47,266 bases of DNA from Bacteroidia bacterium (lineage in GTDB: Bacteria > Bacteroidota > Bacteroidia > UBA4408). Location of the stretch: NCBI GenBank assembly GCA_023262495.1, contig JALRAS010000008.1, positions 1 to 47,266 of the forward strand. The letters run 5' to 3'. Of the stretch, positions 22,326 through 34,294 are shown piece by piece; positions within the stretch are counted from its first letter, which is position 1, and the number at the start of each line of letters is the position of its first letter. The position numbers were made by a program, and so were the translations under genes. Under the pieces are notes generated by a model, which worked only from the letters and a program-made list of their open reading frames with translations, had not been told where the DNA came from and ran no database searches.

Positions 22326-23060
22326 TTACTGTGTTTGTTTTTCTTGATTAAACATATTCTGAATCAATGACAAAACTACATATAAAATAATAATAAACGG
22401 CACCGCTTTTTGTTTAATTAATAAAACAACAACTGCAGATAACAATAGCAACAAATAGCGCCACTCATTGCCTTTCCAGCCAAAGCTTTTGAACTTAAGG
22501 GCAATCATGGGCAACTCCGCAACCATTAAGTAAGATTGTATGGCACATAGCGTAATCAATACGTACGGTTTCAATAAAATTTCTGCAATTGCATTGCCCT
22601 CGGGAATCATCAGAAGCGGCAAAAAGCTTATGAGCAGGGCGTTTGCAGGAGTAGGCAGCCCAATAAATTGGTCGGATTGACGGGTGTCAATATTGAATTT
22701 TGCCAAACGATAAGCCGAAAACAAAGGGATCAACAAACCGGCATAAGCCAAGTACCACACAGGTTCATCGGGGCCCAAATAAGCAGCACCGCTGCCTATG
22801 GCATAAATAATTAATTGATACATCACAAAGCCGGGTACTACCCCAAAAGTAACCATGTCGGCCAAAGAATCGAGTTGTTTGCCCAATTCAGAATGTACAC
22901 CAAGTAAGCGCGCTGCAAAGCCATCAAAAAAATCGAAAGCGGCTGCCATCATCAATAAGATAGCGGTAAGCTCAAATGATTTGTGAAAGGTACTGATGAT
23001 AGCCAAACAACCACAAAGTAGATTCAACAGGGTAAGCATGTTTGGAATGTGTTTTTTCAT
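22326..23060 (-). CDS. pssA: CDP-diacylglycerol-serine O-phosphatidyltransferase
   Basis: This enzyme makes phosphatidylserine from CDP-diacylglycerol and serine at the inner membrane, the precursor of phosphatidylethanolamine. The 244-residue protein has six to eight hydrophobic helices, and the CDP-alcohol phosphotransferase signature is complete: DGFAAR, then an 8-residue spacer, G, KQL, D, SLA, D. Type II PSS proteins in Bacteroidota have this size. The ATG overlaps the stop of the upstream acyltransferase (ATGA). No psd gene is adjacent. Confidence 0.92.
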   Translation of the reverse strand: MKKHIPNMLTLLNLLCGCLAIISTFHKSFELTAILLMMAAAFDFFDGFAARLLGVHSELGKQLDSLADMVTFGVVPGFVMYQLIIYAIGSGAAYLGPDEPVWYLAYAGLLIPLFSAYRLAKFNIDTRQSDQFIGLPTPANALLISFLPLLMIPEGNAIAEILLKPYVLITLCAIQSYLMVAELPMIALKFKSFGWKGNEWRYLLLLLSAVVVLLIKQKAVPFIIILYVVLSLIQNMFNQEKQTQ

Positions 23061-24205
23061 ATGCGTATGCTGTTTTGCCGGTAAAAATTACTTTTTAATG
23101 CAAGTATAGGTTTTTCGAAGTAATTATAGCTCAATGTAGCTATCAAAATAGTCAACAGCATCATCACCAAAGGATTAATGAACATTACCTGATAGGATGT
23201 TGATGCGATAGCATAGTGCATCATCAACTGACTGAAAACAGTAATCACAATGCCATGATAAAAATACAAGCCCAAGGATATCTTACCGAGGTAATCAAAA
23301 GGGAGAAAAAATTTTTGCACGCGAGGAACAAATTTCGAGTAACAAAGTATAGCAATGCATGAAGCAAACAGCAATGAAAAATAGCATCTTTCAAAAAGCA
23401 TGGCAACTGTGTTGGTAAAAACAAAGGTGTAGGTAACCACAGACAACAGCAGCAGTGCGCCCCAAAAAAACAGGGCTGTTTTTCCCATATTGGCCACAAT
23501 TGATACAAATCGCTTGCTGTATGCACCTAAATAGGCAAGTAACATACCCACCCCAAAATTAGAGGCAACACTGCAAGTATGAAAATAGAGTTCTAATTCG
23601 TTATGCATGTGCGTATATCTGTATAACAGAGAAATGACAATGAGCAACAAACCGGTAATAGGTATACTGTATTGAAATACCCTGTTGCCGATACGCGAAA
23701 TAAATTGAAGCAAAAGTCCCCATATCACATAAAATTGCTCTTCAACCGATATGCTCCATAAAAACACCAGAAAGAACAAAAAATCATACCCGTTTTTAGC
23801 AATGTAAAGATTAAGGGTAAATGTTACAAAGTAAATCAATGATGGGAGTGGTGTATGTGTAAAACCGGCATATGCCAGGGCAAACCCGATACCTGTCATA
23901 AAAAAATACATTGGCCAAATTCTCAAACTTCTTCTTATGAAAAATAGTTTGAAGCTGAAGGTGTTGTGGCGTGCTTGTTCTTCAATAATAAGTCGGGTGA
24001 TTAAAAATGATGACAACACAAAAAAGTAATCAAGTCCCAATAGGCCAACATCCAAAAAATGTTTCATGCGTTGAAACCACAATGATGAGGATATACTTGA
24101 ATTGGAGGTAACAAAACAATGTGTTAGGAATACGGGAATGAATGCCACAAACCTTGTTGTGTCGAGCAAAGGAAAATACAATGCGTGTTGATGCTTGTGC
24201 GGCAA
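23057..24205 (-). CDS. Acyltransferase family 3 membrane protein (OafA/YrhL-type)
   Basis: A 382-residue inner-membrane protein with about ten helices. The start has the family pattern LDTTRFVAFIPVFLTHCF (Arg and His in helix 1, the proposed acyl-transfer residues), then FFVLSSFLITRLI, RRSLRIWPMYFF and LWSISVEEQFYVIWGLL, all characteristic. Such proteins O-acylate sugars of LPS, peptidoglycan or exopolysaccharides. The start is a TTG at 24205; another TTG lies at 24181. It leads a run with pssA, purS and probably the next two genes. Its acceptor is unknown. Confidence 0.9.
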   Translation of the reverse strand: MPHKHQHALYFPLLDTTRFVAFIPVFLTHCFVTSNSSISSSLWFQRMKHFLDVGLLGLDYFFVLSSFLITRLIIEEQARHNTFSFKLFFIRRSLRIWPMYFFMTGIGFALAYAGFTHTPLPSLIYFVTFTLNLYIAKNGYDFLFFLVFLWSISVEEQFYVIWGLLLQFISRIGNRVFQYSIPITGLLLIVISLLYRYTHMHNELELYFHTCSVASNFGVGMLLAYLGAYSKRFVSIVANMGKTALFFWGALLLLSVVTYTFVFTNTVAMLFERCYFSLLFASCIAILCYSKFVPRVQKFFLPFDYLGKISLGLYFYHGIVITVFSQLMMHYAIASTSYQVMFINPLVMMLLTILIATLSYNYFEKPILALKSNFYRQNSIRI

Positions 24206-24369
24206 TGTTTAAAAATAGTTGTGTAAAAATAGTTTAAATACCCTATCTACACCCATGATTAATGCTAATTTAGTCAATCGCTTTCTGCCACAAGGCCAAT
24301 TAAGTAGTTGTTACACTATAATATTTATGACTAATTCAAATCATTTATAGGTATGAGCACATTGAAAAA

Positions 24370-24465
24370 GGGGGCGGGGGAAATTCACCATTCACCATTC
24401 ACCATTCACAATTCACAATTAATGGGGGGCGGGCAAATTCACAATTCACAATTAAAGTGGGTGGG
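24370..24465. repeat. G-rich block plus ATTCAC(C/A) heptamer repeat, two copies
   Basis: Copy 1 has G5-C-G5 at 24370-24380 and then five head-to-tail heptamers (three ATTCACC, two ATTCACA) at 24383-24417, closing in ATTAATG. Copy 2 has G6-C-G3 at 24424-24433 and two ATTCACA heptamers at 24437-24450, closing in ATTAAAG. A third G-rich piece, GTGGGTGGG, ends the array at 24457-24465. The copies are 54 bases apart and differ in heptamer count, which implies slippage. It lies upstream of the acyltransferase (minus) and just after the 3' end of the sugar dehydrogenase gene. The whole 269-base gap 24206-24474 has no gene. Confidence 0.9.
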
Positions 24466-24474
24466 TAATCAACC

Positions 24475-26388
24475 CTATCGAATCACAAATGACTTGTTGA
24501 ATTCGCCCTGCGCATCACTTATCTTGAGCATGTAAAATCCTTTTTGCAACTCGTTAACTTGTAAGTGATGAATATTGTTCCCTCTCACGGTAGCTACATT
24601 TCTGGTATATACCACCTTGCCTGTAATATCAGTAACCTGCAGCATCATATTGCTTGGTGAACCGGCATTAAACTCCACTGTAAAAATACCATCGTTAGGA
24701 TTAGGATACAAGTTAAGTGAAGATACATTGGTTTTAATGGCTATGCCACTGCAAACAGTAACTTCAATCGATTGAGAAACAGTAGTATCACATCCTCCGC
24801 TATTCACATAAGTGTAATTAATGGCGTAAGTGCCCGCGCCTGCAACAGCAGGATCAAATGTATTGCCGTTAATGCCTGTACCGCTGAAATTACCACCTGC
24901 GGGGCTTCCTGTAAGCAATAGAGGAGCATCAATGGTGCATATAGTTGTACTTAAGCCACTGAATGACACTGCAGGAAGTGTGTTAGTAACAATATTTACA
25001 GCCGTTGAAACATTGCTGCAACTCGAAGGATTGGTTACTTGCACTGTATACGAACCATCGGACAATGTATTTAAATTGGCTGTAGTAGCGCCACTAATTA
25101 CTGCACCATCTTTAAACCATTGATAGGTGTTTTCGGGGTGATAAATGGCAGATAAAGTTGGGTATGATTCTCCCGGGCACAAATTAATGGTGTCCTGCAA
25201 AGAAACAATGGCAGCTGTTGGAAGGCAACCTGTTGCGCCAATCCTACGTACTGTTCCATTAAATGAATTAGCCATATAAATCTCCCCACGATAATCTTCA
25301 CCAAAAGCAACATAAGCTCCTGTTCCAGCAACTGTCCCTAGGTCAAATGTGGTGAAGGTGCCATTCGCATTTTTTCTTGTAAGACGAATTTTGCTATCGC
25401 AATAATCGGTATAAATGTAGTAGCCATATAAACTGCCATGTTTTGCCCCACGATACATGTAACCACCAGTTACCGAACAACCGGTTGAGTGACTATAAAC
25501 AGCAACCGGGGGAGTAGTGCTGCTGAATGTTGGGCAACCGGTTTGGCTAACATTTGGTGTTTGAACATTTCCCTCATAGCATCTCCAGCCATAATTTCTG
25601 CCTCCGGGTGTCCCAAGCGCTTCGTAATCTATTTCTTCCCATGCACTTTGCCCTACATCGCCAATCCACATATCTCCATAAATCCTGTCGAAGCTCCATT
25701 TCCATGGGTTGCGTAAGCCATATGACCATATTTCTGCTCTATTGGATGTTCCAACAAATGGATTGTCGGCAGGAATCCCATAAGCCAAAGGTGCTTGTGG
25801 ATTATCAACATCTATCCTGAGCATTTTACCCAATAATAGCGTTAAATTTTGGGCTCTGTTACCCGGATCATTGGCACTGCCACCATCTCCCATTCCTATG
25901 TATAAATACCCATCAGGACCAAATGCAATGCAACCTCCGTTGTGGTTAGAAAATGGCTGAGAAATGGTTAACAAAACAGTGGCACTGGCGGGGTCAGCCA
26001 CATTTGAGTCGGCTGCACTCACTTGATATCTGGCTATGGTGGTAGCCCCACCACTGATTGCAGTATAGTTCACATAAAAATATCCGTTGTTTTTGTAGTC
26101 GGGATGAAAGGCCATACCCAATAAACCACGCTCATCTCCCGTTGATGCCGGATTGGTGCATATTCCTGTTAGATTAAGAAAAGGTGTTGCGTTTTGCACA
26201 CCATTGCTATCACAAACTATAATTTTTCCGGCTTGTTGAACAAAAAATAAGCGGCTGTCATTACAATTTCTGATATCAACCACCCTGCTATTGCCGGTGT
26301 TAAACGTAGTAAAAGTAAGTGTTGGCTGGGCCTGTGCAAAACATGCCACTATTGCAAGCAAACATAAAATAGCGTAACTCTTTTTCAT
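24475..26388 (-). CDS. PQQ-type sugar dehydrogenase (GSDH) with T9SS sorting domain
   Basis: A 637-residue secreted enzyme. Residues 1-20 form a signal peptide (cleavage at CFAQAQ). Residues 25-380 are a six-bladed propeller of the glucose/sorbosone dehydrogenase family: GDERGLLGMAFHPDY, NHNGGCIAFGPDGYLYIGMGDGG, GKMLRIDV, GLRNPWKWSFD and DVGQSAWEEI are its usual blocks, and the His and Arg residues in them would contact PQQ. Residues 390-530 have Ig-like repeats (ENTYQWFKDGAVI, then a Cys-rich strand pattern). Residues 560-637 are a T9SS domain with LYPNPNDGIFTVEF and KGFYMLKIS. It likely oxidises aldose sugars outside the cell. No PQQ synthesis genes are nearby. ATG follows a strong promoter. 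Confidence 0.92.
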   Translation of the reverse strand: MKKSYAILCLLAIVACFAQAQPTLTFTTFNTGNSRVVDIRNCNDSRLFFVQQAGKIIVCDSNGVQNATPFLNLTGICTNPASTGDERGLLGMAFHPDYKNNGYFYVNYTAISGGATTIARYQVSAADSNVADPASATVLLTISQPFSNHNGGCIAFGPDGYLYIGMGDGGSANDPGNRAQNLTLLLGKMLRIDVDNPQAPLAYGIPADNPFVGTSNRAEIWSYGLRNPWKWSFDRIYGDMWIGDVGQSAWEEIDYEALGTPGGRNYGWRCYEGNVQTPNVSQTGCPTFSSTTPPVAVYSHSTGCSVTGGYMYRGAKHGSLYGYYIYTDYCDSKIRLTRKNANGTFTTFDLGTVAGTGAYVAFGEDYRGEIYMANSFNGTVRRIGATGCLPTAAIVSLQDTINLCPGESYPTLSAIYHPENTYQWFKDGAVISGATTANLNTLSDGSYTVQVTNPSSCSNVSTAVNIVTNTLPAVSFSGLSTTICTIDAPLLLTGSPAGGNFSGTGINGNTFDPAVAGAGTYAINYTYVNSGGCDTTVSQSIEVTVCSGIAIKTNVSSLNLYPNPNDGIFTVEFNAGSPSNMMLQVTDITGKVVYTRNVATVRGNNIHHLQVNELQKGFYMLKISDAQGEFNKSFVIR

Positions 26389-26410
26389 TATATTTAATTT
26401 TAATTGATGA

Positions 26411-26439
26411 CAAACTTACTAAAAATGCCGTTAATCAAA
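26411..26439 (-). promoter_or_regulatory. Promoter of the sugar dehydrogenase gene
   Basis: The minus strand carries TTTG at 26439-26436, 17 bases of spacer, and TAAGTTTG at 26418-26411. This is the clearest full -33/-7 pair of the phylum's type in the window. The predicted start lies about 16 bases before the ATG. Confidence 0.65.
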
Positions 26440-26496
26440 GCTAATTTTTAATATGATACCTAAAACGATAGACTAAATTAGAATAGGTAAAGATAT

Positions 26497-26504
26497 TATA
26501 TTTG
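26497..26504 (+). promoter_or_regulatory. -7 promoter box for the RmlD-like gene
   Basis: TATATTTG is an exact TAnnTTTG about 50 bases before the ATG at 26552. The 26440-26496 segment lacks a clean -33 TTTG. Confidence 0.4.
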
Positions 26505-26551
26505 TGATGATTTTAAGCATCGTATTCTTGTAAGTTAATTTTCCTTTTCTC

Positions 26552-27505
26552 ATGCAACGTATTCTCATTACCGGTACTAATGGTTTATTAGGACAAAAAT
26601 TGGTTTATCTGCTCTTGGAGCGAAATAAAACCACAGCCAGTCAGTTTCAAATCACTGCTACTTCAAGAGGAGAAAATAGGCTAATGAACAAAAAAGGATA
26701 TCAATACTTAGACCTTGATATTACCAATGCTGATGAAGTAGCGCGTGTTTTTACCCTTGTAAAGCCGCATATCATTATCAATACGGCAGCTATGACCAAC
26801 GTAGATCAATGTGAAAAGGAGAGAAAAGCTTGTGATGCAATCAATGTTGAAGCCGTGGCACATCAGCTGAGCGCACTCGAAAAATTGCAGCATGCCGAAA
26901 AAAATTACAAGCCCCATTTTATTCATTTGAGTACCGATTTTGTGTTTGATGGCAAAGCAGGGCCTTACAGCGAGGCAGATCAACCTAATCCCATTTCTTA
27001 TTATGGTCATTCAAAATACAAGGCCGATTTATTGGTGCAAGAAAGTGCTGTAAAATGGGCTATTGTGCGCACCATCATTGTGTACGGAGTAGTTGATAAT
27101 ATGAGTCGATCTAACCTGGTATTGTGGGCTAAATCTGCTTTGCAGAAAGGAGAAAAAATCAATGTTATCAACGATCAGTTCAGGGCTCCTACCCTTGCCG
27201 AGGATTTGGCTGAGGGTTGCATGTTGATTGCCGATAAAAAAGCAACAGGCATTTTTAACATCAGCGGACGCGATACATACAGCATTCTCGATTTGGTTTA
27301 TCAGGTTGCCGACTTTTGGCAGCTCGATAAATCGCTCATTCAAGTGGTTTCATCAGATACACTCAATCAGCCGGCAAAACGTCCACCACGCACAGGTTTT
27401 AAATTAGATAAGGCCATTGATATTTTAGGCTATCAGCCAAAATCTTTTAGAGAGGGGTTAATGATAGTAGATAAGCAATTGAAAGCGCTTGAGAAAAACG
27501 GATAG
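26552..27505 (+). CDS. dTDP-4-dehydrorhamnose reductase-like SDR (RmlD type)
   Basis: An extended SDR of 317 residues. TGTNGLLGQ (residues 7-15) binds the dinucleotide, and the pattern NTAAMTNVDQCE, HLSTDFVFDGKAGPY and YYGHSKYKAD (Tyr/Lys catalytic pair) matches the RmlD substrate-binding family, which reduces 4-keto-dTDP-rhamnose with NAD(P)H. The C-terminal segment with RPPRTGFKLDKAIDILGY is also of RmlD type. The other rml genes are absent, so a relative acting on another NDP-sugar or a tRNA/methionine-associated role (as in MAT2B) is not excluded. Converges with the TonB-receptor-like gene, two bases apart. Confidence 0.85.
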   Translation: MQRILITGTNGLLGQKLVYLLLERNKTTASQFQITATSRGENRLMNKKGYQYLDLDITNADEVARVFTLVKPHIIINTAAMTNVDQCEKERKACDAINVEAVAHQLSALEKLQHAEKNYKPHFIHLSTDFVFDGKAGPYSEADQPNPISYYGHSKYKADLLVQESAVKWAIVRTIIVYGVVDNMSRSNLVLWAKSALQKGEKINVINDQFRAPTLAEDLAEGCMLIADKKATGIFNISGRDTYSILDLVYQVADFWQLDKSLIQVVSSDTLNQPAKRPPRTGFKLDKAIDILGYQPKSFREGLMIVDKQLKALEKNG

Positions 27506-30069: not shown

Positions 30070-31452
30070 TTACCTCAATAATGGCTTCAGCGATAATAGT
30101 TTGGGTTGATTCGATTTAATCCAACTGCGTATCAAAACATCATTATCAGGGTAATAATCTGCCTTGTTAATCACATCCATAAAGTCATCTAAACTATTGA
30201 GTTGTGTATATTCATCAAAGTAACCTGTTCCTACAAATTTATTGTTGAGTACTACTATCATTGCCTTTTCACCTTGTGAGCGGCCTGCGGTAATTATGGC
30301 AAAGTGTGGATCTGTGTACGAATGCTTCTTAATCAGGGAGGCCGCCCTTTTGTTGTAACTATCAATGTCTTCTTCTCCCGCACAAATGCCATTGCATCGC
30401 TTAATTTGATGATGAAAACATACCGCATTTTCTTGCAGCAAGCCACAATAGCTCATGCACAGGCAATATTCATCAATCATACTTTCTAAAAAGTTGCGCG
30501 CTTGTGCATATCCATTAAAGGCCAACATGGCTCTATCAGAGGAGGCTACCGGTACAATATGAAAGCAAATGATGCCTGCCTTGTTTTTCTCCCATTCAAC
30601 ACAATGTGTAAACTCATCGGCCTTTCGCATGCGGTTGAATTTTGGTTTGTGTTTTTTAATCTCTTCATTCTCTAGCAGCAACGCAATAAGTTCATTGCCA
30701 GTTCTTACAAAATCTACATTGTGCAGCTCATGAAGCATCTTCTTCCCCTTTTGTTCTTTGCTGTTAAAGTGGCTCATGGCACGGTTATACATGTTGGAGC
30801 TTTTTCCTATGTATATAATTTCTTGCTGTTCATTCAAAAAGTAATAAACCCCGCACGCTTCTGGTAATTTGTCGAGTATATATTGCTTTATTTTGTCGAT
30901 TTTCCTCACCATCAAGTCATCGAGCCCCTTCGTTTTGTATTGAGGATGCGTACTTTTAACTTGCATTAATATATCAAACAATTGTGCCGTGGCTACTGCA
31001 TCTCCTCTTGAACGATGTCGGGCCTCGTTATGTATCTGATAATAATCGCACAAATGACCTAAGCTGTATGATTTTAACCCTGGAACCAATTTTCTGCTGA
31101 GCCGCACTGTACATAGCGTATCACGCTTATAGGAGAAGCCCAGGGAGGCAAATTCTTCTTTTACAAAGCCATAATCGAAACCAACATTGTGCGCCACAAA
31201 AATTTTGTTTTCGGTCATTTCAAGAATTTTTTTTGCCACTTCAAAAAATTTGGGAGCGTCTTCGACCATCGCATTGGTGATTCCCGAAATATTAGTAAAA
31301 TAAGGCGATATGTAACATTCGGGATTGATTAAAGTGGTAAACTCATCAATCACCGAAAGGCCATCATGAATCAATATGGTGATCTCAATAATCCGCCCTC
31401 TTCTGAAGTCGAACTTTCCTCCGCAGGTTTCTATGTCTATAATAGCAAACAT
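30070..31452 (-). CDS. DnaQ-type exonuclease / GIY-YIG / UvrC-like fusion nuclease
   Basis: A 460-residue three-part protein. Residues 1-165 are a DEDDh 3'-5' exonuclease: Asp6 and Glu8 in FAIIDIET, HNVGFDYGF, and the ARHRSRGDAVATA block with the conserved His and Asp. Residues about 198-275 are a GIY-YIG endonuclease domain (CGVYYFLN, IIYIGKS, AMSHF, and Glu in the ALLLENEEIKKHKPKFN block). Residues 325-360 hold a Cys-rich segment (CLCMSYCG, CFHHQIKRCNGIC) like the Cys region after the UvrC nuclease domain. The layout resembles polymerase-epsilon/UvrC hybrid proteins known in actinobacteria and Bacteroidota, and suggests a repair role. ATG at 31452; tail of the transcript unclear. Monocistronic. 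Confidence 0.9.
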   Translation of the reverse strand: MFAIIDIETCGGKFDFRRGRIIEITILIHDGLSVIDEFTTLINPECYISPYFTNISGITNAMVEDAPKFFEVAKKILEMTENKIFVAHNVGFDYGFVKEEFASLGFSYKRDTLCTVRLSRKLVPGLKSYSLGHLCDYYQIHNEARHRSRGDAVATAQLFDILMQVKSTHPQYKTKGLDDLMVRKIDKIKQYILDKLPEACGVYYFLNEQQEIIYIGKSSNMYNRAMSHFNSKEQKGKKMLHELHNVDFVRTGNELIALLLENEEIKKHKPKFNRMRKADEFTHCVEWEKNKAGIICFHIVPVASSDRAMLAFNGYAQARNFLESMIDEYCLCMSYCGLLQENAVCFHHQIKRCNGICAGEEDIDSYNKRAASLIKKHSYTDPHFAIITAGRSQGEKAMIVVLNNKFVGTGYFDEYTQLNSLDDFMDVINKADYYPDNDVLIRSWIKSNQPKLLSLKPLLR

Positions 31453-31813
31453 TTCAGCAAAGCGGCTTTAACATGATGCAACTGCCGCCTTCATTCAAAA
31501 CAGATGTTCGCGTATAAATCATGGGTGTAAATTCATTATTTGGTAAACAATCGACATATCGATGATGCTTTTTACAAAGGTAATGATAACAGACATATGT
31601 CTTATTTGCAGAAATGTGTATTGGCACAAGAATTGAAAACAATATTTGTATTACATTCGAATTGAGTTAATAAATAAATAGTTATCAGCAGGTTAAGCGC
31701 GATGTTTGGAGGTGGAAGGTTTACAGATAAAGCGAGGGCGCAAAATTTGCTGACAATTTGTCTTTACACGCAAAGCGAATAATTTTTTTTAGTTTCTTTG
31801 AATTAAACAAACA
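31453..31813. other. 361-base intergenic region between the fusion nuclease and lon
   Basis: No convincing gene. The longest open stretch (minus strand, 62 codons from 31642) has no clear start signal and no resemblance to a family. The region holds one exact -7 box and a palindrome on the nuclease side. A T-rich run with TTTCTTTG ends 16 bases before the lon ATG, but it is not an exact TAnnTTTG, so the lon promoter is not pinned down. Confidence 0.6.
31575..31602 (-). promoter_or_regulatory. -7 box and adjacent 12-bp palindrome upstream of the fusion nuclease
   Basis: The minus strand shows TACCTTTG at 31582-31575. Just upstream, at 31591-31602, is the perfect palindrome AGACATATGTCT, lying within the -33/-7 spacer where a repressor could bind. 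The leader to the ATG at 31452 would be about 115 bases. Confidence 0.4.
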
Positions 31814-34294
31814 ATGGAAAACGATAATTTCAATTTTCAATTAAATAATTTTGATCAAATAGCAGATGATGAGGCGGAGTTTATTCCCCTGCTCTCTACC
31901 GAAGATGAGGAGCAGATGAATGCCGAAAAAATTCCGGACGTGCTGCCTATTTTATCATTACGCAATACTGTGCTCTTTCCGGGTGTGGTAATTCCTATTA
32001 CCGTTGGGCGAGATAAGTCTATTAAACTTATTAAGGATGCCTATAAGGGAGATAAAATAATTGGGGTACTTTCTCAAAAAGATGATAAGATTGAGGATCC
32101 AAGTCCTAACGACTTAAATAAGATTGGCACTGTTGCCTTTATCGTAAAAATGTTACGCATGCCCGATGGTAACACCACCGTTATTATTCAAGGTAAGAAG
32201 CGTTTTGAAATGAAGGAAGTGGTGCAGCAAGAACCATATCTCAAAGCAACCATTGTTCCTTTTGAGGAAACACGCCCATCGAAAACCGAAAAAGAGTTTT
32301 TGGCCTTAGTTGCATCGCTGAAGGATTTGGCGCTGCAGATTATTCAAAAATCGCCAAACATCCCTTCGGAGGCGGCATTCGCCATAAAAAATATCGAAAG
32401 TCCTTCGTTTTTGATTAACTTTATTTCTTCAAACATGAATGCCCCGGTGGCCGAAAAGCAGAAAATGCTCGAAGTTGCCGACTTAAAGGACAGGGCCACA
32501 TTTGTGCTTCAACATCTTAGCAAAGAGTTGCAAATGCTTGAGCTCAAAAATCAAATTCAAAGCAAGGTAAAGGTTGATATGGATAAGCAACAACGCGACT
32601 ATTTTTTAAGTCAGCAGCTTAAAACCATTCAAGAAGAGTTAGGAAACTCTATTGACAAAGAAGTAAATGAATATCAAAAGCGTGCCGAGAAGAAAAAATG
32701 GACTGCAGAAGTAGCAGAAACATTCAATAAAGAATTGCAAAAGCTGCAACGCATGAATCCCAACTCAGCGGAATATTCGGTGCAAACCAACTATATTGAC
32801 ACCTTGTTGGATTTGCCATGGAACGAGTATACAAAAGACCGTTTTGACTTAAAAAAGGCGCAAAAGATTTTAGATGATGATCATTTTGGCTTGGATAAAG
32901 TTAAAGACAGAATTATTGAACACTTGGCTGTGCTCAAAATGAAGGGCAATATGAAAGCTCCTATCCTTTGCTTGTACGGGCCCCCGGGTGTTGGCAAAAC
33001 ATCGCTCGGAAAGTCGGTAGCCAAGGCACTCGGCCGCAAATTCATACGCATGAGTTTGGGCGGTGTGCACGATGAAGCTGAAATACGTGGTCATCGTAAA
33101 ACATATATTGGTGCTATGCCGGGCCGTATCATTCAAAATATTAAGAAGGTAAAATCTTCAAACCCTGTATTCATTCTCGATGAAATTGACAAGGTTGCAA
33201 GTAGCTATCATGGAGATCCCTCATCGGCATTGTTGGAGGTACTAGACCCTGAGCAAAACAATGCTTTCTATGATAACTTTTTAGAGTTGGAATATGATTT
33301 AAGCAAGGTTATGTTTATTGCCACGGCCAATTCGCTAAGTAGTATTCAACCTGCTCTTCGCGATAGATTAGAAATTATTGACGTAAGTGGATATACCATT
33401 GAGGAAAAGCTAGAAATAGCCAAGCGTCACCTTGTACCAAAACAAATGGAGGAGCATGGCTTAAAGAAAAATCAATTGCAGTTTTCCGATGCCGCAATCG
33501 AGTGTTTGATAGATGATTACACACGCGAAAGCGGGGTAAGAGCGCTCGAAAAGCAAATAGCAAAAGTGATTAGAGCCAATGCCCGACACATTGCCATGAA
33601 GGAGGAATATAACAATAAACTAACTCCCGATGACATTAAGCGCATATTGGGTCCAAAGATGTTTCATCGCGATAAATACCAAGACAATAGCGTGGCAGGA
33701 GTTGTTACAGGTTTGGCTTGGACTGCTGTTGGTGGCGATATTTTATTTATCGAAGTGAGCTTAAGCAAAAGTCCGAAATCGGGCGGAAAGCTTACTTTGA
33801 CAGGCAATTTGGGCGATGTAATGAAGGAGTCAGCAGTAATTGCTCTCGAATATTTAAAGTCGCACAACGAAACCTTTGGAATTGCCGCAGAGGCATTCAA
33901 CAATTGGAATATTCACATACATGTGCCCGAAGGCGCTACCCCAAAAGATGGCCCTTCAGCAGGTATAACCATGCTCACCGCACTGGCATCAGCATTCACA
34001 CAGCGCAAGGTAAAAGCCAACTTGGCCATGACAGGAGAAATTACTTTGAGAGGAAAAGTACTGCCTGTTGGCGGAATCAAGGAAAAAATATTGGCCGCAA
34101 AGCGGGCAGGAATAAATGAAGTGATATTGTGTGCAGAAAACAAAAAAGATATTGAAGAAATCAGGCAGGATTACATCTCAAATATGAAATTTCATTACGT
34201 TACCGAAATGGAAGAAGTAATCAAAGCGGCCTTGCTCAACGAAAAGGTTGATAAACCAATTAATCTTGAAATAAAGGAAGAAAAGGAAAAATAA
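31814..34294 (+). CDS. lon: ATP-dependent protease Lon
   Basis: Lon unfolds and degrades misfolded and regulatory proteins in the cytoplasm. The 826-residue protein has the substrate-binding N-domain ([18 protein letters not shown]), a coiled-coil region, an AAA+ module (Walker A GPPGVGKT at 389-396; Walker [18 protein letters not shown] sensor region) and a serine-lysine protease domain with Ser715 in [11 protein letters not shown] and Lys756 in LPVGGIKEK. The N-terminus has an acidic extension ([20 protein letters not shown]) before the Lon domain, common in Bacteroidota. Converges with the GGGPS gene 18 bases away. Confidence 0.98.

Follow-up and report, generated by a model that had tools for sequence, protein, structure and literature searches.

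The site at positions 24370-24465 of the window, i.e. of the whole analysed stretch of 47,266 nucleotides, is probably (with a probability of roughly 0.6) one copy of a lineage-specific, dispersed, composite heptamer repeat of intergenic DNA, which is copied between loci and is mostly near-neutral. It belongs to a repeat family of characteristic composition that lies mainly next to stop codons, is present or absent at orthologous sites of related genomes and uses its own words in each species. As a kind, such repeats are already known from the dispersed intergenic heptamer repeats of cyanobacteria, Xanthomonas and Beggiatoaceae. The present one is best filed as a new form of them, with the G-block as a distinct element beside the heptamers and with a higher-order arrangement that recurs.

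The array and its family in the genome

In the preliminary description, two G-blocks followed by ATTCAC heptamers and ATTAA had been reported for this site, and these are present letter for letter; the heptamer numbers of five and two are correct, and the third G-rich piece is real. All elements are given here as read on the plus strand. A partial lead-in resembling octamer module M3 (GCACATTGAAAAA; 24357-24369) was recognized by BLAST to a copy on contig C218 (window 24357-24422, query 135-201, 85% identity), and has counterparts in loci L033 and L035 (GGCACATTGAAAAATGGGGG / GGCACATTAAAAAGGGGG). The first G-block (G5-C-G5, GGGGGCGGGGG; 24370-24380) is followed by AA and a first heptamer array of three ATTCACC and two ATTCACA units (24383-24417), which terminates in the word ATTAAT (24418-24423). 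After the second G-block (G6-C-G3; 24424-24433) come CAA, a second array of two ATTCACA units (24437-24450) and the terminal word ATTAA (24451-24455), followed by the third G-rich piece (GTGGGTGGG; 24457-24465), which 9 bp separate from the stop codon that ends the upstream minus-strand gene. TRF delimits the arrays at 24383-24420 (period 7, 5.4 copies) and 24436-24453 (2.6 copies). As in dispersed intergenic heptamer repeats, the tandem unit is exactly 7 bp long: the lag-7 match at the site is 27/28, and lags 5, 6, 8, 9 and 10 peak at 18-20 across the whole window. The combined G-block and heptamer pattern matches twice in the window versus 0 matches in 100 dinucleotide shuffles, and heptamer pairs match five times versus 0.26 expected.

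The genomic context had likewise been described correctly, with the array placed between the 3' end of a sugar dehydrogenase gene and an acyltransferase gene. The former, a glucose/sorbosone dehydrogenase-like (GSDH) gene on the minus strand (24475-26388; PF07995), encodes a T9SS-secreted protein with a T9SS sorting tail (PF18962), and the array abuts its 3' end. The next gene downstream, also on the minus strand (23057-24205), was assigned by Pfam to the acyltransferases (Acyl_transf_3, PF01757).

That the site might be part of a genome-wide repeat family was borne out by a search of the whole genome (G000), a Bacteroidia draft of 2,987,303 bases (2.99 Mb) in 273 contigs, of which the window is contig 262: about 15 array sites were found. 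ATTCACVATTCAC matched 58 times on 11 contigs, compared to two matches of the reversed-pattern control, with one lone match each on C220 and C240, inside an open reading frame. Used as BLAST query, the window array gave 22 further matches in the genome at E < 0.001, and a G-block followed by ATTCA matched nine times (control 0), one of these matches, on C239, showing no array in the extracted region. The family thus occurs in many copies and mostly in non-coding DNA, as is characteristic of dispersed intergenic heptamer repeats.

Within the extracted regions, which the module map and the unit parse cover, the recurring unit is (G-block)-(ATTCAC(C/A))n-ATTAA, with one to three units per site where a G-block is present. 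Octamer modules (TTTTCAAATTTTCAAATT; ATCAGCTAATC; AATTGGCACATT) often precede it, and sometimes a double-hairpin module with GGA loops does so. Heptamer runs span 1 to 14 units, the words being ATTCACA (48), ATTCACC (44) and minor variants, and ATTAA follows 22 of the 38 runs parsed from 15 regions, single ATTCA words included. Modules belonging to one site never differ in strand. Four contigs carry several sites (3, 2, 3 and 2), and on each of them all arrays point the same way, which is unexpected under plain neutral insertion and hence counts against the main reading. A 50-base module of two GGA-loop hairpins (AGGCC-GGA-GGCCT and CTCGCG-GGA-CGCGAG), which resembles REP-type palindromes, is itself dispersed in the genome with and without heptamers (L033:1977-2020, L035:8700-8860, L037:6104-6148, L165, L166, L167, L168 and L169).

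On C92, C223, C231, C252 and C63, no more than about 200 bases separate array or module sites from a contig end. The repeats thus probably break this assembly, which makes the copy count a lower bound, and would account for some of the assembly breaks in such drafts. Sites at contig ends might also point to an artefact of draft assembly or binning, but for the window array and several others, synteny with a congener (G001) extends across the array on both sides, and the G+C content of the array contigs is uniform (0.38-0.41), so that this explanation can practically be dismissed.

Orthologous sites in congeners

Three congeners (G001, G002 and G003) were searched with pieces of the flanking genes, and the orthologous spacers were compared by lag-7 score and by reading. 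All three keep the order of dehydrogenase, acyltransferase and CDP-alcohol transferase, and none of them (0/3 congeners) has an array in the spacer of the window site, which instead holds a terminator-like hairpin in G001 and G003 and comprises about 40 bases in G002 (hairpins judged by eye). In total, 13 sites of the window's genome could be assessed in the nearest congener, G001, with L037a and L037b counted as one insertion (arrays around one inserted gene), L035a (no neighbour match) and the lone matches on C220, C239 and C240 omitted, and a single matched flank only for L031, L035b, L036, L039, L040a and L040b. On this basis, the array is absent from G001 at 10 sites (window, L031, L032, L033a, L033c, L035b, L037a+b, L037d, L039 and L040b) and present at three. 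The shared sites are located upstream of anmK (L033b/L045), at the 3' end of a ThiF-family gene (L040a/L050) and at the 3' end of a CofH-like radical SAM gene (L036/L097), and words and lengths differ between the two genomes at each of them; upstream of anmK, three heptamers in G000 compare with an array of about 280 bases in G001. Hence, as in other heptamer repeats, unit number varies between copies as well as between related genomes.

Two sites of G001 with both flanks matched, L043 and L044, are empty in G000. The unit words of G001 are ATTCACA (40), ATTCAAA (12) and ATTCAGC (9), and a long run of CTTTCAA-like words is found at L044. In the compared regions of G002 and G003 no array was detected (best lag-7 score 18/28, versus 27 at the window array), and ATTCACNATTCAC gave zero matches in the whole of both genomes. 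Because arrays are absent from these two, their gain in the lineages of G000 and G001 is the simpler reading of presence and absence alone. The genus offers a clean natural experiment, with four congeners and syntenic genes, two carrying arrays of different words and two without, in which gain, loss and rewriting of arrays are traceable site by site. As a separate observation, some 250 bases of CTTTCAA-like words together with ATTCAC units at L044:2150-2640 end 22 bases before a gene, the product of which presumably has a MutL-like N-terminus, as we take it from the motif; the counterpart spacers in G002 and G003 measure tens of bases.

Empty sites in relatives would also be expected for a small mobile element, namely the composite, perhaps together with the double-hairpin module, moved in trans by a transposase such as Y1 (IS200/REP-type). 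The recurrent module order, the occurrence of the double GGA-loop hairpin module at about eleven places and the Y1_Tnp matches in G000 (3) and G001 (10) are consistent with such a movement. However, Y1 matches are also present in G002 (2) and G003 (3), which are array-free at the compared sites, and the modules occur in many partial combinations. Neither target-site duplications nor conserved outer ends were noticed by eye, and a by-eye comparison of the occupied site L033c with its empty counterpart in G001 showed no shared ends. We regard a mobile element as distinctly unlikely.

Alternatively, the arrays might act as recombination sites, i.e. as direct repeats allowing gene gain, loss or movement between them. 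Relative to G001, gene order is changed at 5 of the 11 junctions with arrays and at 6 of 58 others (hand count, Fisher p 0.011), and a 639-aa gene with no Pfam match is situated between arrays of G000 (L037:3945-5864), while G001 has both of its neighbours side by side. Yet the count was made post hoc and by hand on few contigs and represents about three events, as a single insertion contributes two of the five changes, one at each end, and another two lie on either side of one gene; moreover, the window array, L032, L033a-c and L037d lie in conserved gene order. The case for the arrays as a recombination hot spot is suggestive only, and recombination as their main explanation appears very improbable. 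Gene order of the window equals that of G001 contig C4 from base 3 to 31452 and diverges beyond (window 31452-31814).

Position, length change and possible roles of the arrays

With array and gene bounds set by hand, arrays lie at a mean distance of 19.6 bp from the nearest stop codon, compared to 55.4 bp under uniform placement, and 0 of 20000 draws were as low (15 sites, both species). This test was entered by 16 of 27 sites, of which 15 were scored, since L049 fills its gap, whereas L031, L032, L035a, L036, L037a, L039, L047, L048, L081, L082 and L083 were omitted on the grounds of contig edge, divergent genes, array overlapping a gene end, mixed strands or missing neighbour. In the seven same-direction gene gaps alone, the distance (37 versus 52.5 bp; 2293/20000) is not significantly reduced, and this weak pull counts against the main reading. 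At L032, the upstream reading frame enters the array and terminates inside, and the arrays of L033b, L044 and L045 are located about 20-40 bp before start codons. Overall, the hugging of stop codons fits insertion or growth that is tolerated after genes and removed elsewhere, but is not in itself proof of a function.

If the repeat is dispersed and near-neutral as proposed, copies of the composite would enter non-coding gaps, mostly right after stop codons, where insertions should be least harmful. The unit would sometimes be doubled or tripled, and often have octamer modules attached to it in a single orientation. After arrival, arrays would lengthen or shorten by whole 7-bp units, most likely through replication slippage, which has been proposed for heptamer repeats generally (Rehm et al. 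2015, PMC4692102). The expected variation in heptamer number is seen between copies (1-14 units) and between species at shared sites, with slippage as its most likely cause. However, local duplication of variant units was not apparent: 37 of 71 neighbouring units share the seventh base versus 31.8 +/- 4.1 in shuffles, so that the likeness of adjacent units does not significantly exceed that in shuffles and gives no positive support to unit-by-unit slippage. Furthermore, slippage cannot place one and the same composite at unlinked loci, which it leaves unaccounted for, and copying between loci must therefore be added to the main reading. At the window site, the array would lengthen and alter the 3' UTR of the dehydrogenase gene as its main likely effect, and seems to occupy the place of the terminator-like hairpin found in two of the three congeners. 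A replication-strand bias was not seen, as third-position and overall GC skew were of no consistent sign in 8 contigs of G000 and 11 of G001. As a tentative and rather unlikely proposal, period-7 and period-8 word blocks (ATTCACC/A, AATTGGCAC, AATCAGCT, TTTTCAAA and the G-block) might be assembled in a preferred order and in one orientation and be copied between gene ends neither by simple slippage nor by a classical transposon, each species using its own word set at partly shared sites. If true, one general process would underlie comparable heptamer grammars elsewhere in the Bacteroidia and, perhaps, in further phyla.

A varying unit number is also the hallmark of phase-variable simple sequence repeats (contingency loci), and the site had been suggested to be of this type. 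Its position, after the stop codon of the dehydrogenase gene and with 165 bp between it and the called acyltransferase start, does not bear this out; unlike contingency loci, the array is placed outside a coding frame and outside any shown promoter. In a wider sense, a regulatory array could be bound by protein or act as RNA with a length-dependent effect on translation, termination or mRNA stability, be it as phase-variable switch or as 3' UTR device. Such a role is in line with arrays adjoining stop codons, with the three sites shortly before starts (L033b, L044 and L045), and with the action in translation proposed for TAACTGA heptamers (MacGregor 2015, PMC4679880). On the other hand, RNA folding of 8 array strands was no better than that of shuffles (z -1.12 to 0.81), no terminator-like (hairpin-plus-T) site was found in 23900-26600 and no match to Rfam was obtained, and a terminator or structured RNA was rejected on these grounds. 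In addition, the genes flanking the arrays have no obvious function in common across sites, and the nearest congener lacks the array at 10 of 13 sites. A regulatory role is thus very doubtful, and the array gives the impression of variable filler more than of an established switch.

The G-blocks themselves could be the working part of a G-quadruplex element, as the G runs had been thought capable of forming quadruplexes. When quadruplexes are allowed, the first block is folded by ViennaRNA into a two-tetrad quadruplex (-35.5 versus -20.0 kcal/mol). However, the canonical motif of four G3 runs within 60 bp occurs at none of the 15 G-blocks near heptamers (0/15), which leaves a two-tetrad or long-loop form alone as possible, and many arrays, including all shown for G001, carry no G-block. 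The quadruplex was hence rejected as main reading, and is highly improbable as the working part.

Relation to known heptamer repeats and wider distribution

Short tandemly repeated repetitive (STRR) heptamers of cyanobacteria are arranged in tandem in non-coding DNA. The present arrays resemble them in both respects, while word and host differ, and we know of no composite G-block unit among them. Heptamers of Calothrix are also mentioned by Rehm et al. (2015, PMC4692102), whose GGGNATC / GGGGA(C/T)T heptameric repeats from Xanthomonas and Nostoc represent a closer comparison. Arrays of the GGGNATC type comprise 2 to 26 units, and many of them are no further than 50 bp from a stop codon. As in the present family, the seven-base unit is dispersed, over-represented in non-coding DNA and found near stop codons, with the same sites differing in length and sequence between related species. 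In contrast, the GGGNATC heptamer itself carries the G-run, so that four units make up a quadruplex, whereas the heptamer described here is free of G and accompanied by a separate G-block; four consecutive G-runs in heptamer register, typical of the GGGNATC kind, are absent here, and the canonical motif was found at 0 of 15 blocks. Sites common to two species amount to 83% for GGGNATC repeats, compared to 3 of 13 here.

Direct repeats of TAACTGA have been reported from Beggiatoaceae, Cyanobacteria and some Bacteroidetes (MacGregor 2015, PMC4679880). In that report, they differ by 7-nt indels between close strains, and relatives of some Bacteroidetes have repeat-free spacers, as is the case here. 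Like the present arrays, they are intergenic, patchily distributed across phyla and mixed with other heptamers. They differ in position, which in the Guaymas strain is mainly immediately ahead of start codons, while the present arrays lie mostly just after stop codons, and the parts of that report considered here describe no G-block or fixed module order. TAACTGA is also not the word of the units found here. A literature search for the ATTCAC word in Bacteroidia returned nothing, which is weak evidence of absence, as it covered open-licence papers only. Heptamer repeats thus recur across distant bacteria, and the parts of both papers considered here leave the spread of one word to many loci unexplained (PMC4692102, PMC4679880).

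Of 395 genomes of the class Bacteroidia, 22, which represent 14 genera, contain ATTCACN arrays (ATTCACNATTCACNATTCAC; reversed pattern 8), and in several of the 20 extracted loci heptamers of different but related words are mixed. The combined pattern of G-block and heptamers was confined to one of the 395 genomes, that of the window. In a collection of named species it matched nine loci, of which by eye seven are non-arrays and two (L061 and L063) are short arrays; as a few chance matches are to be expected in so big a collection, no link to these is claimed. Two matches in viral contigs were by eye not arrays either. In L063:2997-3021 (Chloroflexi draft) and L061:3805-3829 (Brevefilum draft), the G-block is directly followed by ATTCAC heptamers, a close likeness that is possibly due to chance. 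The distant Bacteroidia genome G359, the only one with matches among the sampled genomes of its family, holds 61 of them, with ATTCACN arrays mixed with TTTCACA-like words (L149).
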